The notes below the pieces were generated by a model. The model saw only the letters and a list, made by a program, of their open reading frames with translations, was not told where the DNA came from and did no database searches. The position numbers and the translations under genes are program-made. Source: Rhizobium sp. C1 (lineage in GTDB: Bacteria > Pseudomonadota > Alphaproteobacteria > Rhizobiales > Rhizobiaceae). Taken from it: DNA of 64,000 nucleotides. The stretch's first letter is position 1, and every line of letters starts with the position of its first letter. Below, piece by piece: positions 18,489 to 58,066 of this stretch. Where the stretch lies: contig NZ_JAJNCY010000004.1 of the NCBI RefSeq assembly GCF_021026335.1, positions 62,001 through 126,000 of the forward strand, in the 5' to 3' direction.

Positions 18489-18906
18489 TCTCACTGCCGC
18501 TGTACCGCTTGCCTATGGTTGTGCTCCGCAACATTAACGCAAGTAGATGATTGCGGGTTGCATTTAAACCCGTGACATTGAGTGAATTTGGCAAAAAAGC
18601 GAAAGTGCCGTCGTTCTAAGACTAATTGATGCCCGCCCGCACGAAATCCTCTCTCACGAATACCAGGCAGGGCGTATGCCCTTTTCGCGCAACTTGACTT
18701 TCCGCCGCTTTTCCTGTTTAAGCCCCACAAAATCCGTCTCAAGGCAAGCTTGAGCCACTGACCGGGGCTTCGATCCCGGAGGTCAACATCCGGCAGCGCG
18801 ATGCGCCCCCGGATGCCACACTGCTTTGTGCTGAAGTGAGTTGCGCTTGCATTCCTGACGGACAATACCGACGTTTCGGACAACCCGAAACGAAAAGGAC
18901 GACACG
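18489..18906. other. Intergenic region between the metallo-hydrolase gene and ffh
   Basis: About 418 bases without a gene. It must hold the divergent promoters of both genes; a candidate ffh promoter is at 18693-18721. I looked here for the 4.5S SRP RNA because ffh is adjacent and found no GGAAGGAAGCA-like tetraloop region. Confidence 0.5.
18693..18721 (+). promoter_or_regulatory. Candidate sigma-70 promoter of ffh
   Basis: CTTGAC at 18693-18698, a 17-base spacer and GTTTAA at 18716-18721. The leader to ffh would be about 180 bases. Confidence 0.4.
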
Positions 18907-25861: not shown

Positions 25862-26392
25862 ATGAACATCATCGAACAGCTTGAGGCCGAACAGGCCGCC
25901 AAGATCGCAGCCAAGCGCACGCTTCCTGAATTCTCCCCGGGCGACACCGTCCGCGTCAACGTCCGCGTTGTCGAAGGCAACCGTACGCGCGTCCAGGCCT
26001 ATGAAGGCGTCTGCATCGCGCGCAAGGGTGCTGGCCTCAACGAGAGCTTCACGGTTCGCAAGATCTCCTACGGCGAAGGCGTCGAGCGCGTATTCCCGGT
26101 TTACTCGCCGCTCGTCGAAGGCGTTGAAGTCGTTCGCCGCGGCAAGGTCCGTCGCGCCAAGCTCTACTACCTGCGCGACCTGCGCGGCAAGGCTGCCCGT
26201 ATCGTTGAAAACACGGGCACGCGTTCGCGCAAGCTGAACGACGCCGAGCGTCAGGCTGTGGCTGACGAAAAGGCACGCATCGAGGCTGAGAAGGTCGCCG
26301 CTGCCCAGGCTCTCGCCGCCGAAAAGGCTGCAGCGGAAGCTGCCGAAAAGGCCGCCGCTGAAAAGGCCGCTGCAGAAGCTGCCGCTGAATAA
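25862..26392 (+). CDS. rplS: 50S ribosomal protein L19
   Basis: 176 residues. The L19 core runs from [11 protein letters not shown] through [20 protein letters not shown] and [20 protein letters not shown] to [13 protein letters not shown]. After about residue 125 it has a long Ala/Glu/Lys tail with repeated [12 protein letters not shown], longer than in most bacteria but usual in rhizobia. ATG 25862 is the conserved start; ATG 25853 adds three residues. A strong terminator follows. Confidence 0.96.
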
Positions 26393-26417
26393 GCCGCATC
26401 GCCTGTTGCATTTTATC

Positions 26418-26452
26418 GAAGGCCGCCGGTATGATCCGGCGGCCTTCTTTGT
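26418..26452 (+). terminator. Rho-independent terminator of rplS
   Basis: Perfect 12-bp stem GAAGGCCGCCGG/CCGGCGGCCTTC with a six-base loop, then TTTGTTG. Confidence 0.88.
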
Positions 26453-26488
26453 TGAGGAATCAGGGCAACATCGGAAAAATTTCCGGCC

Positions 26489-52046: not shown

Positions 52047-54458
52047 TCAGTTGCCGTTGATGATGTCGAGCAGGGTCTTCTGACGGCCGCCCTGCGGACG
52101 GGTGTTCTGCGCCCCGACATCCCCGGGCGGAACGGGCCCTTCCAGCGTACCGCCGGGAATATCGCCAGGGGGAACGGGCCCTTCCAGAACAGAGCCATCA
52201 GGCCGCGTACGGCTATTCTGCTGCGGCCTGTCGATGGCGGCAGGCGGCACGGGTGCGAGTTGGCCCGCAGGCGGCGCGCTGGCAACCGGCGGCGGGGGCG
52301 CGGGCTGGGCTTGGGCCGGCGACGGCGCGCGACGCTCGGGCTGCGCCGGCTTGCCGTTCAGGAAGTCCGAGATGATATCGGTCAGCGTCCGGCTCTTCTC
52401 CGGCACGTCACGCGAGGCCGTCGGCACATTCGACTTTGGCGGCTGGGCGGGTGCGATGGGACCGCCGGTGGTGCCGAAGATCGGCCCCGGCGTCTTGCCC
52501 TTTTCCGCAGAGACCATGAACTGATGCCAGGTTTCGGCGGGAAGACCGCCACCCGTAACCCGCTTGGTCGGGGTGCCGTCGTCGTTGCCGAACCAGACGC
52601 CGGTCGTCAGATCCGAGGTGAACCCAACGAACAGCGCGTCGCGCGATGATTGCGTCGTGCCGGTCTTGCCGGCAACCGGCCAGCCGGAAAGCCGGGCTGC
52701 CTTGCCCGTGCCTTCATTGACGACGCGCATGAGCATGCCGTTCATCATGGCCACGATATTCGGCTCGAGAACCCGCGGCGGGTCGTCATAATTGTTTTCG
52801 TAAAGCACCTTGCCCTTGGCTGTGGTGATGCGGCGCACGACATGCGGCGTGGCCTTGTAACCACCATTCATGAAGGGCGCATACGACGCCGTCAGATCCA
52901 TCAGCGTGACTTCCGACGTGCCGAGCGCAATCGAGGCATTCGGCTGAAGATCGGCCTCAATGCCCATGCGGTGGGCGACCTTGATCACCTGCGGCGGCCC
53001 GGCCTCCATGACGAGCTGAGCCGCAATCGTGTTCAACGAATGCGCCAGCGCATAGGACAGCGTGACGGGGCCGTTATACTTCTTCTCGTAGTTTTCCGGC
53101 GTCCAGTCGCCGATGCGCACCGGGGCGTCGTTGCGGATCGAGTCCGGCGTATCGCCCAGTTCAAGTGCTGCAACATAGACAAACGGCTTGAAGGCGGAGC
53201 CGGGCTGGCGCAGGGCCTTGTAGGCACGGTCATACTGGCTCTCGGCATAGTCTTTTCCGCCCACCAGCGCCCGGATTGCGCCGGTTCCGTCGATGGAGAC
53301 GAGCGCCCCCTGGCTGACATTCAGGCGTTTGCCTTCCTTGTCGATGGCATTGCGAATGGCATCGCCAGCTTCGGTTTCCAGCTTGGGATCGATCGTCGTG
53401 TCGACGATCAGGTCTTCCTTCACGTCGCCGACCATGTCGTGCAGCTTGTCCATGACCATGTCGGCGACATACTGGCCGGCACTGGACATGTAGGGCCGCG
53501 CCGGATCAGGCGTCATCGCCAGCGCGCTCTGCACCTGCTTCTCGTTGATGTAGCCGGCATCCCGCATCGCGCCGAGAACGACCTCGGCACGCGCCTTGGC
53601 GGCCGCAGGATCCTTCACGGGCGAAAGCCGCGACGGCGCCTTGAGGAGCCCGGCAATGGTGGCGGCCTCCATCAGATTGAGGTCGCGCGCCGATTTGTTG
53701 TAGTAACGCCGTGCCGCCGCCTCCACGCCATAGGCATTCGCGCCGAAATAGACGCGATTGAGATACATGGCGAGGATTTCGTCCTTGGTGAACTTGTGCT
53801 CGAGCCAGATGGCGAGCAGCACTTCCTGCACCTTGCGCTCCATGGTGCGCTCAGGCGTCAGGAAAAGGTTCTTGGCCAGCTGCTGGGTCAGCGTCGAGCC
53901 GCCCTGTACGGTATGACCACTCACAAGGTTCGTGACAACGGCGCGGGCCAGACCGATCGGATCGAAGCCGAAATGGTAGTAGAAGCGCCGGTCCTCGATG
54001 GAAATCACGGCTTCCGGCAGGTAGGGCGACATACTGTCGAGGCTGAGCGCCTCGCCGCCGGTCGAGCCGCGATTGGCGATGATCGAGCCGTCGGCCGCCA
54101 CGATCTTGATATTCGGCGGCCGGTCCGGGATGGTCCAGGAGGTCGCATTCGGCATCTGCGCGCCGTAGTAGAGGAAAATCCCGCCAATGCCGATCGCACC
54201 CCAGATGGCGAGCACGATGCCCCAGTAGATCATACCGCGGATAAGGGCGAAAATGCCGCCGCCGGACCGCTTGCGCGAACGCCGAGAAGAGGCCTTCGCA
54301 TCACGATCCTCACGTCGGGAGCCGCCCCGCCGCGATCCGCCGCCGGAATTGTCACGCGAACCACGCGACGGGCCGCCAACGCGATCGCTTTGGCTCGCGT
54401 TCAATCCACCATCGAACGAGGGTTCGATGCGCCTGTCACTATCGTCGTGTCTTGCCAT
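52047..54458 (-). CDS. Class A penicillin-binding protein (PBP1A family)
   Basis: 803 residues. A basic, Ser/Arg-rich cytoplasmic N-terminus, one membrane span ([20 protein letters not shown]), a GT51 glycosyltransferase domain with [13 protein letters not shown] and [13 protein letters not shown], and a transpeptidase domain with SAFKP (SxxK), SLN and KTGTT. Polymerises and cross-links peptidoglycan. The Pro/Ala/Gln-rich C-terminal tail ends with a tandem LEGPVPPGD repeat. Minus strand, upstream of dnaK but separated by dnaK's promoter. Confidence 0.95.
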
Positions 54459-54642
54459 TCCGCCGGGTTAAGTCCTTGAAGGGCTGGAGGGCCTTCATTG
54501 CCCTGGAGTTTCGATGTCGCCGTGAACTTTAAATGTGGCGGTTTAAGGGGGCGTTAAACATTCTGACATGAAGCCACAATCCGCAAAGAAAAGGGCCGGC
54601 CAGCGGCCAGCCCCCTCCCCGATCGAAAAATCTGCAGCCGTC

Positions 54643-56091: not shown

Positions 56092-56580
56092 TCAGACAGG
56101 AATCTGTTTTCTTTCCGAAATCGGGCCGGGGACGGATTGCGGATCTTCGTCCAGTTTGCGGGCATTCTCGACCAGCCAGCGCATGTATTCCAGCAACAGT
56201 TCGCGCTCGAAACGGCGAAACCCGCCGAACATGGCGTCCTCTGCGGCGCGGGCGGCGGCCTCGGCCTCGGGCTGCATTGCGCTGGCGCGCTCGGTCAGGA
56301 AGAGAAGCTGGGCGCGCTTGTCGCTCGGATGTGGCCGGCGCTCGATGAGCCCGTCCCGCTCCATGCGGGCGAGCGTATTCGCCATCGTCGCCTGCTCGAT
56401 ATCCAGCCGGTCGACGAGCTGACGCTGCGTGAGCCCGTCCTCAGCCCAGAGCGCGACAAGAACCGGAAACTGCCCCGGAAGGAAGCCGAGGCTCGCCGTC
56501 CGCTCCTGAAACGCCCGCGCAAATCCGCGAGCCAGAAGGCTCGAAAGATAGGTCGCGGAAGTGGTTAGGTCGAATGCCAT
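56092..56580 (-). CDS. MarR-family transcriptional regulator
   Basis: 162 residues with a winged helix: DGLTQRQLVDRLDIEQATMA and NTLARMERDGLIERRPHPSDKR, the last being the MarR wing signature. Sixty bases upstream of the M20 peptidase gene on the same strand. ATG 56580 (MAFDLTTSATYL) is the natural start; the longer reading to 56838 runs through a candidate small-RNA terminator. Target unknown. Confidence 0.9.
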   Translation of the reverse strand: MAFDLTTSATYLSSLLARGFARAFQERTASLGFLPGQFPVLVALWAEDGLTQRQLVDRLDIEQATMANTLARMERDGLIERRPHPSDKRAQLLFLTERASAMQPEAEAAARAAEDAMFGGFRRFERELLLEYMRWLVENARKLDEDPQSVPGPISERKQIPV

Positions 56581-56676
56581 ATTCGTCTTGATAGACGAGC
56601 CGGCGATTCGCAGCAATCCGGTTGACAGCAGGCTATGGAACTGAAGGTGGGCCGAACCGGCAGGGGCGGCGAAGCC

Positions 56677-56835
56677 TGAAAAAGCAAAAGCCGCCATGGC
56701 CTGGAGGGGGGGATGCCATGGCGGCTTGCGATTTGGGGACAAAGACCCGGAGAGGGGGGATGAGGTCTTTGTCCACGTCTGACAATGGCGGGGGACAGGC
56801 CGTTTGTCAGACAGCGGCGTGATCAATCGCCGACG
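56677..56835 (-). ncRNA. Candidate trans-acting small RNA with three C-rich hairpin loops
   Basis: Minus strand, read from high to low coordinates: hairpin 1 with 9-bp stem GTCTGACAA/TTGTCAGAC (56777-56812), hairpin 2 with 10-bp stem GACAAAGACC/GGTCTTTGTC (56738-56773), and a 13-bp terminator hairpin AAGCCGCCATGGC/GCCATGGCGGCTT (56688-56727) that runs into TTTTGCTTTTT. The loops contain GTCCCCCGCC, ATCCCCCCTCTCC and CCCCCCCTCC, able to pair with GGAGG sites. A promoter CTTGAA-17-TCATTT fits a start near 56835. The layout recalls rhizobial alpha-r14/NfeR1-type and Cuckoo anti-Shine-Dalgarno RNAs; family membership is not proven. Confidence 0.55.
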
Positions 56836-56841
56836 CACTCA

Positions 56842-56870
56842 AAATGACTGTCGGAATGTGGCTTTTCAAG
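56842..56870 (-). promoter_or_regulatory. Candidate promoter of the small RNA
   Basis: CTTGAA (56865-56870), a 17-base spacer and TCATTT (56842-56847) on the minus strand. The -10 match is weak. Confidence 0.35.
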
Positions 56871-56958
56871 GTCTCCAGAATTACAAATTGGTAATGCAAC
56901 GTGATCATCCGCCGGCGCGCAGCGAACGCTTGAAAATATTAGCAAACCATTGAATTAC

Positions 56959-57130
56959 CGAAGAGAAAAGGCCGCAACGGAAGGGGCAATTCCGCTGCGG
57001 CCGCGATGTAGCGCAGCGCCACGGGGCGATGGCAGCTGCAATCGGCGCGAACACTATTGGGGGGACGGTTTCGCGCCGGTCAGGCCGCAGGCGGCGGCCT
57101 ATGAAAAAGAGGTTGCCGCCCGAAAATGGC
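56959..57130 (-). ncRNA. Second candidate small RNA, same architecture, tandem upstream
   Basis: Minus strand: hairpin GGCGGC/GCCGCC (57093-57120) with loop AACCTCTTTTTCATAG, hairpin GGCGCGAA/TTCGCGCC (57044-57077) with CCGTCCCCCCAATAG in the loop, and a terminator hairpin pairing GGCCGCAGCGGAA with TTCCGTTGCGGCC (56970-57002), followed by TTTTCTCTT. The 5' end is not defined; a CTTGAA at 57165-57170 could be a -35. Alternatively the last hairpin is simply the terminator of the SLT lipoprotein gene at 57182. Confidence 0.4.
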
Positions 57131-57181
57131 GATTTGATGATCCGCCATGACGCCCGACCGACCTTTCAAGTCAGGCCGTTT

Positions 57182-57757
57182 TCAGTTTGGACAAGTGCGA
57201 AGCTGGGCGGCGTAGCGATAGGCCATCCTGGTGAAGCGCTGCGCACCGTTCAACGCCTCCGCGTTTCCAAGATAGCTGCGCCTTGCATAGCCCTGCTGCC
57301 CCGAGTGATAGGCCAGGTAGAGATTATAAGGATCGTTCAGGGCGATCCCGTTTACGGCAGCACTCTTGCGATGGAACCAGCCGGCGAAGTCGACCGCGTC
57401 GGCGAAGCTGGTACGGCGCGCCGTGTAGCGCCCGGTTTCGGCAACATAATGCGACCAGGTGCCGTCGAGCGCCTGCGAATAGCCATAGGCCGTCGAGGGA
57501 CGCGACCAGGGAATGAAGCCGAGAAGCTTCCTGCGCGGCGGCCTGGCGGCGGGCCGGAAGCCGGATTCCGTGTAGATCGTCGCCAGCAGGATCGGTGCCG
57601 GAACGCCCCACCGGGCCTCGGCCTTTCGCGTCGCGTCGCGCCAATTGTCGAAGAAGCTGTCCTTCTCGTCGAAAATGGCACAGGCATTCGTCGTATGCCG
57701 AGGAACAGTGGCGCAGCCCGCCAGCAACAGCAGGCATGCCAGAAACACCCAACGCAT
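57182..57757 (-). CDS. SLT-domain lipoprotein (putative lytic transglycosylase)
   Basis: 191 residues. Lipoprotein signal with lipobox LLLLAGC, then an SLT-like domain: PAPILLATIYTESGFRP (catalytic Glu in TESGF), YGYSQALDGTW and YNLYLAYHSGQQGYARRSY, the typical EAD/lysozyme-like ending. Probably anchored in the outer membrane and acting on peptidoglycan. ATG 57757 (MRWVFLACLLLLAGC) is chosen; 57763 and 57775 are other in-frame starts. Confidence 0.85.
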   Translation of the reverse strand: MRWVFLACLLLLAGCATVPRHTTNACAIFDEKDSFFDNWRDATRKAEARWGVPAPILLATIYTESGFRPAARPPRRKLLGFIPWSRPSTAYGYSQALDGTWSHYVAETGRYTARRTSFADAVDFAGWFHRKSAAVNGIALNDPYNLYLAYHSGQQGYARRSYLGNAEALNGAQRFTRMAYRYAAQLRTCPN

Positions 57758-58066
57758 CGTCATTACTCCATACAAACATGCCTGGAATGATGCGGACTGT
57801 TACGGTCCGCAACGGCATGGACTGAAAGCGTTTGGCCGCCGCTGGACAGGCCGTGAGACAGGTGCAGCGGCGAACGGAACTCAGACCGTTTATAAATCCT
57901 GAAGCTTAACGTTCGGTTTTTATCGAAATCGTACATCTCGCCGGGTGGTCAAGTTTCGCTTTGACACGCGGCGACAAGATCAGTAAGGGACCGGCTTGAT
58001 TTTATTTCGTCTCAACCACCAGTCCGGCCCGGCCGGGCTTCGAATGGCGACACACGAGGTTTCACC
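57758..58066. other. Intergenic region upstream of the TIGR02300 gene
   Basis: About 309 bases without a gene, holding the divergent regulatory regions of the SLT lipoprotein and TIGR02300 genes. A candidate promoter is listed separately. Confidence 0.5.
57961..57989 (+). promoter_or_regulatory. Candidate promoter of the TIGR02300 gene
   Basis: TTGACA (57961-57966), a 17-base spacer and TAAGGG (57984-57989). The -35 is perfect and the -10 is poor. Confidence 0.35.

Follow-up and report, generated by a model that had tools for sequence, protein, structure and literature searches.

Between a gene for an SLT lipoprotein and marR, the minus strand of Rhizobium sp. C1 carries two groups of hairpins, each ended by a terminator. 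The locus raises the question whether these groups are small RNAs, whether they belong to a family already described and how the two are related to each other. The sequence stems from contig NZ_JAJNCY010000004.1 (GCF_021026335.1); the window is the whole stretch of 64 kb that was analyzed and all positions refer to it. The downstream group (56685-56835) is designated here as ar7 unit and the upstream group (about 56959-57101) as second unit or unit 2, both on the minus strand. The downstream half and the two flanking genes comprise the following features:

56092-56580, minus strand: gene of a MarR-family regulator (PF01047, E 6.7e-15), downstream neighbour of ar7
56685-56835, minus strand: ar7 (alpha-r7, SmrC7/sra03/SmelC023 family), a trans-encoded small RNA (RF02342, 115.6 bits versus a gathering cut-off of 60, model positions 1-145; cmscan of the whole window)
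56688-56727, minus strand: ar7 hairpin 3, the terminator stem, loop with CCCCCCCUCC (fold; T-tract 56689-56679)
56737-56774, minus strand: ar7 hairpin 2, loop with CCCCCUCUCC (fold)
56776-56813, minus strand: ar7 hairpin 1, loop with GUCCCCCG (fold)
57182-57775, minus strand: gene of an SLT_4 transglycosylase lipoprotein (PF19489, E 1.7e-65), upstream neighbour of the second unit

A first, sequence-only reading had described six hairpins in a row. The hairpins are real but folding gives seven main stems across both units, the ar7 unit having an additional short 5' stem. Its division into two tandem units is confirmed, with the T-tracts TTTTGCTTTTT (56689-56679) closing the ar7 unit and TTTTCTCTT (56969-56961) the second unit, and the C runs it had noticed are present in the loops, CCCCCCCTCC among them. 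It was also right that such structures are unlikely to arise by chance: both units outfold all of 200 dinucleotide shuffles (z of -6.31 for the ar7 unit and -5.59 for the second unit). Chance is excluded by this folding together with the conservation among relatives and not by the result of a simple scanner, which found three terminator-like sites versus 1.8 expected.

The downstream unit is the known RNA ar7 and there is nothing new in this half of the locus. As a new family it is ruled out since Rfam names it ar7 (RF02342). The search with Rfam covariance models that had been proposed along with the idea of a distinct or divergent group thus gave a divided answer: the ar7 unit lies far above its cut-off but the second unit reaches none in Rfam, so that the idea fails for the described downstream family and holds in part for the upstream unit, which is lineage-restricted, though most likely derived from ar7. 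A covariance model built from 22 ar7 loci, all outside the genus (R2), assigns 109.4 bits to the ar7 unit. Within the bacterial family 134 of 199 genomes have RF02342 above cut-off, and within the genus all six do. Compensatory changes among relatives, to which the sequence-only reading had pointed as a mark of true stems, do occur: 17 of 34 stem pairs show changes on both sides among the 22 loci outside the genus, and in hairpin 2 this applies to 5 of 10 consensus pairs, where the changes are shared by the same eight sequences and may therefore represent few events. The hairpin 1 loop word GTCCCCCG shows no variation in 24 aligned ar7 sequences, and the columns of the loops GUCCCCCG and CCCCUCUCCGGG are invariant in 24 sequences, that of the window included.

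In Sinorhizobium meliloti the same RNA is named SmrC7, sra03 or SmelC023 (PMC7143759). According to the passages available from PMC2780559 and PMC2573895 it was detected by Northern blot with 148-150 nt and a processed form of 106 nt, is about 13-fold higher in nodules and sits between polA and SMc02851. For the whole family, excerpts of PMC3927594 describe two middle hairpins with conserved loops and stems with compensatory exchanges; polA adjoins all members but one and MarR adjoins the 14 members from Rhizobiaceae. The ar7 of the window has the MarR neighbour, and a homolog of it is present at 17 of 32 ar7 loci. In contrast with the family members of PMC3927594 the ar7 of the window lies about 35 kb away from polA.

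Two further elements precede ar7:

56842-56870, minus strand: ar7 promoter with CTTGAA, a 17 nt spacer containing GCCACATTC, and TCATTT (CTTGAN-N17 at ar7 loci)
56880-56895, strand not assigned: palindrome ATTACCAATTTGTAAT, a likely operator in front of the ar7 promoter (conserved RTTAC-N5-TGTAAY)

At 124 of 136 ar7 loci there is a CTTGAN with a -10 hexamer 17 nt further on, most often CCAAAT (40 loci), and 56842-56870 is the top match of the window to a promoter matrix made from the other ar7 loci. The consensus CTTGAA-N17-CCAnAT is the RpoH-type one of alpha-proteobacteria. In the part of a review at hand SmelC023 is tabulated under RpoD as well as RpoH1/2 (PMC7143759). From its own promoter of the CTTGAA-N17-CCAAAT type ar7 would give rise to a transcript ended by the third hairpin. 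The motif RTTAC-N5-TGTAAY occurs within the last 110 nt before ar7 at 109 of 136 loci versus none of 1088 control windows; the palindrome ATTACCAATTTGTAAT is likely an operator, and the neighbouring MarR protein would be a candidate for the factor recognizing it. A UlaR site was predicted in the smrC7 promoter region, as mentioned in an excerpt of PMC2780559. With a score of 19.2, CCCTTAAACCGCCACATTTAAA at 54528-54549 (minus) ranks second in the window for the ar7 promoter matrix; it precedes the gene of a transglycosylase/transpeptidase penicillin-binding protein (52047-54458, minus; PF00912, PF00905).

The actual problem of this locus is the upstream half:

56959-57101, minus strand: second unit with a leading GGCCGC hairpin followed by three C-loop hairpins of which the last is the terminator, likely a diverged ar7 sibling (R2, 36.9 bits, E 3.7e-8 in 64 kb)
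56970-57002, minus strand: hairpin 3, the terminator stem (fold and simple scanner; T-tract 56969-56961)
57013-57039, minus strand: hairpin 2, loop CGCCCC (fold)
57043-57078, minus strand: hairpin 1, loop ACCGUCCCCC (fold)
57101-57081, minus strand: leading hairpin (fold)
57119-57140, minus strand: block TCATCAAATCGCCATTTTCGGG, a candidate for a decayed promoter of ar7 type belonging to the second unit (ar7 promoter matrix), shortly behind the SLT stop codon

The second unit is conserved in five of the six genomes of the genus. Its mean pairwise identity amounts to 80%; ar7 has 98%, and the 70 nt that follow the second unit have 48%. None of the five sequences deviates in the loop words ACCGTCCCC and CGCCCC; in loop 1 the 5' half is 100% identical and the 3' half 39%, and the linkers reach 47% and 55%. 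All 12 consensus pairs of the terminator stem are kept. Changes on both sides are present in 2 of 31 pairs, both in the stem of hairpin 2, five sequences giving this count little power. Short matches of 27-33 nt are found in four other genera (L006-L009). A relative on plasmids is dismissed since the region 56950-57180 has no match among 72,556 plasmid records. Between the SLT stop codon and the promoter block the window contains about 33 nt (57143-57176, minus) that are absent from the four related species with unit 2.

The relation to ar7 was followed with R2, run on 136 ar7 loci, and with a model from the five unit-2 sequences that includes no ar7 (R1), run on 394 genomes. R2 finds a second same-strand match upstream of ar7 at 7 of the 136 loci, namely at all six of the genus and at L039 in G061, the one genome that represents another genus. 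These matches reach 52.4 bits (L041), 41.4 (L039), 36.9 (L037), 35.9 (L040), 31.9 (L023), 30.7 (L031) and 28.5 (L026); at the other 129 loci the best same-strand upstream match has only 7.9 bits, all remaining R2 matches at ar7 loci, with scores up to 26.6 bits, falling either downstream or on the opposite strand. A simpler scan of the 136 loci, which looked for second units by their hairpins, recovered the six of the genus but not L039, which R2 detects. Scanned directly with RF02342, the second unit of the window gives 25.2 bits, the element of the sixth species of the genus (G200) 32.2 and that of G061 34.8 (gathering cut-off 60); in the other four genomes of the genus the second unit is absent from the list at E up to 2, and unit 2 and the G200 element are not among the matches listed in the whole-genome scan of the genus. 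R1 detects five matches in the genus (118-132 bits). Outside of it the top eight (36.7-42.5 bits) all overlap ar7 loci above cut-off and the next one (36.0) does not. At the loci with a second unit R1 further matches the neighbouring ar7 itself in L037 (36.6 bits) and L031 (31.8), and in L039 the second element (27.4), but gives no match to the G200 element.

These scores are evidence of the same design and not of descent. Because eight distinct loci of ar14, another rhizobial small RNA family, score 24.7-30.8 bits with R2, values of 28.5-36.9 bits may mean shared design only, and the register varies since most of the displayed R1 matches put hairpin 1 of unit 2 on hairpin 2 of ar7. The second element of L039 (1230-1372) is ar7-like, lies upstream of ar7 and has the terminator loop CCCGTCCCCCG. 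A further R2 match in the window with 20.3 bits (26361-26488) looks by its sequence like an ordinary terminator located inside open frames and was taken as chance.

Overall, we incline, with restrained confidence, to the reading that the second unit is a tandem small RNA derived from ar7, with the SLT gene placed upstream of it by a rearrangement. The strongest competitor holds that it is no more than a stable structure at the end of the SLT transcript, made up of 3'UTR and terminator; it would lack a promoter of its own and might be released by cleavage as a 3'UTR-derived RNA. The position is in its favour, as in five species the distance from the SLT stop codon is about 5-40 nt to the start of the conserved block and about 50-80 nt to the first hairpin, and so is the promoter region, where the simple scanner found no sigma-70-like promoter at the locus and the candidate block is weak in four of five copies. 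However, G200 and G061 have a second C-loop unit in the same place, between divergent polA and ar7, with no SLT gene at the locus (though the alignment of unit 2 with the G200 element is not significant). SLT genes are present in 126 of 199 genomes. Outside the genus, where 122 genomes have the gene, 26 of these were searched at their SLT locus, and R1 does not exceed 17.1 bits in any; a general 3'UTR of SLT genes is thereby rejected. The second unit thus tracks ar7 and not SLT. Moreover, a plain terminator needs no invariant loop words. We consider an origin as mere SLT 3'UTR unlikely. In the other five genomes of the genus polA is found about 35 kb (genome of the window), 34 kb (G187) and 33 kb (G014) away or on other contigs (G199 and G117). 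The DNA upstream of polA is different there (by eye, another gene), and none of it matches R2 with more than 8.7 bits.

A matrix built on the -35 and spacer region of ar7 at 118 loci, with the seven second-unit loci left out, was applied to 124,848 same-strand upstream positions. Its top matches are L026 (G187) with 16.3, L039 with 15.4, L040 and L037 with 7.7 and L031 with 6.7, followed by L023 with 4.3; all six lie at -301 to -309 from ar7, the reverse-strand maximum being 7.2. The match of L041 (4.6) is inside the element and was left out of this count. Block TCATCAAATCGCCATTTTCGGG of the window (score 7.6-7.7, rank 5 on both strands of the window) is hardly above the reverse-strand maximum. 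By these scores an ar7-type promoter signal is clear in two loci (L026 and L039) and weak in four; within the genus CTTGAA with GCCACATTC is clear in G187 and weak in the other four unit-2 copies. Alignments were judged against 400 shuffles each. The G200 element plus 60 nt against its own ar7 with promoter was equalled by 1 of 400 shuffles, with borders chosen after viewing the sequence, its promoter part by 0 of 400 and the RNA part alone by 18 of 400. When unit 2 is aligned with the ar7 of its own locus, G187 alone gives a significant result (equalled by 5 of 400 shuffles, versus 66 to 181 in the other four). With the G200 element none of the five unit-2 copies aligns significantly (30 to 172 of 400).

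Another reading is an unrelated C-loop small RNA that follows the design of ar7 and ar14, has a separate origin and came to lie upstream of ar7 by chance. The similar R2 scores of ar14, the varying register and the non-significant alignment of unit 2 with the G200 element speak for it. ar14/NfeR1 (RF02344) resembles the second unit in three hairpins with C-rich loops and a terminator; in contrast with unit 2 its loops carry CCTCCTCCC. But a chance neighbour would hardly occupy the identical place in 7 of 136 loci or bring ar7-type promoter signals at L026, L039 and G200, and the region 56500-57300 has no ar14 match (cut-off 58.8) at E up to 10 while ar7 is matched with 25.2 bits. A separate origin is in our opinion distinctly improbable. 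The sequence-only reading had correctly stated that the loops differ from the ar14/Cuckoo motif, as CCUCCUCCC is not present in those of unit 2. The genome of the window contains three loci of the ar14 (NfeR1) family above cut-off (contigs C1, C17 and C18) and a fourth one just below (55.5 bits). Finally, a functionless ar7 duplicate in decay, suggested by the weak promoter block in four of five copies and the mean identity of 80% versus 98% in ar7, is very unlikely given two loop words and nearly the whole terminator stem kept in five species, as well as two pairs with both-side changes, next to a spacer of only 48% identity.

We therefore return to the second unit as tandem relative of ar7; its descent from ar7 is likely, though short of proof. 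A tandem duplication of ar7 together with its promoter would have produced it, followed by divergence that altered stems and loop words and left the succession of three C-loop hairpins plus terminator in place. In five species of the genus a rearrangement would then have separated the ar7-marR block from polA and brought the SLT gene in front, which would be why the second unit now starts shortly behind the SLT stop codon. The RNA might stem from its own weak promoter or from SLT read-through and processing. A more far-reaching scenario appears to us possible but rather doubtful: the duplicate took over a new role in one genus and persisted in a second lineage, its loops moved from an anti-Shine-Dalgarno code to the words CCGUCCCC and CGCCCC, and in one clade the rearrangement made a formerly independent sRNA gene part of a cell-wall transglycosylase transcript, as its 3' end.

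Regarding the mode of action, ar7 presumably acts in trans, with G-rich ribosome-binding regions of mRNAs as partners of its C-rich loops. The complements of loop words were counted before the starts of 316 predicted genes in 464 kb and compared with coding windows, with small counts and uncurated starts. Before starts the controls GGAGG and GGAG exceed their frequency in coding windows by factors of 4.8 and 3.6. Complements of ar7 loops 2 and 3 are enriched 2.5-10 times (1-6 of 316 genes each), those of loop 1 1.5 and 2.4 times with the full heptamer in no gene, and those of the unit-2 loops 0-1.3 times with the exception of GGGGCA (2.7 times, on two genes). Anti-Shine-Dalgarno pairing, which the sequence-only reading had considered possible, is plausible for ar7 loops 2 and 3 but unsupported for the second unit, whose loop complements are on the whole not enriched before genes. 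The second unit is predicted to be an ar7-type RNA with altered targets that would act by altered C-loop pairing.

Among known systems, the Cuckoo RNAs (CcsR) of Rhodobacter likewise occur in tandem and have C-loops and a promoter of the RpoH type. Their loops carry CCUCCUCCC, and they are co-transcribed with a small ORF that precedes them; neither of these two traits was seen at the locus of the window. With ar7 (RF02342) the second unit shares the hairpin order, the loop word GUCCCC, C-run loops, the terminator and a mostly weak promoter remnant; it differs in reaching 25.2 of 60 bits, in the missing CCUCC within loops and in another leading hairpin. A tandem pair of similar sRNAs in a rhizobium is also represented by AbcR1/AbcR2 (SmrC16/SmrC15; excerpts of PMC2780559 and PMC3712013). 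They belong to another family, however, and are 84% identical (PMC2780559), whereas the pair of ar7 and unit 2 has diverged beyond clear sequence alignment. PmaR, restricted to Agrobacterium and one Rhizobium strain, is rejected as equivalent of the second unit by its description as a long stem with one loop in the passages at hand (PMC6234868). No mention of a tandem second ar7 unit was found in the literature searched, as far as the passages and few sections covered extend.

Judged from sequence comparison, the second unit is probably a new, lineage-restricted tandem RNA derived from ar7. Given the wide conservation of ar7 and its entry as a single-copy RNA in S. meliloti (PMC7143759), natural tandem copies with changed loops and kept architecture would reveal which loops bear the function and how copies drift after duplication. 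The second unit may illustrate how such regulators drift and gain new targets. As the upstream neighbour of an sRNA gene changes here between close relatives from polA to a protein gene on the same strand, the locus also offers a natural test for the origin of 3'UTR-linked RNAs. Elsewhere in the window Rfam matches RF01793 ("ffh sRNA") with 61.5 bits at 18772-18823 on the plus strand.
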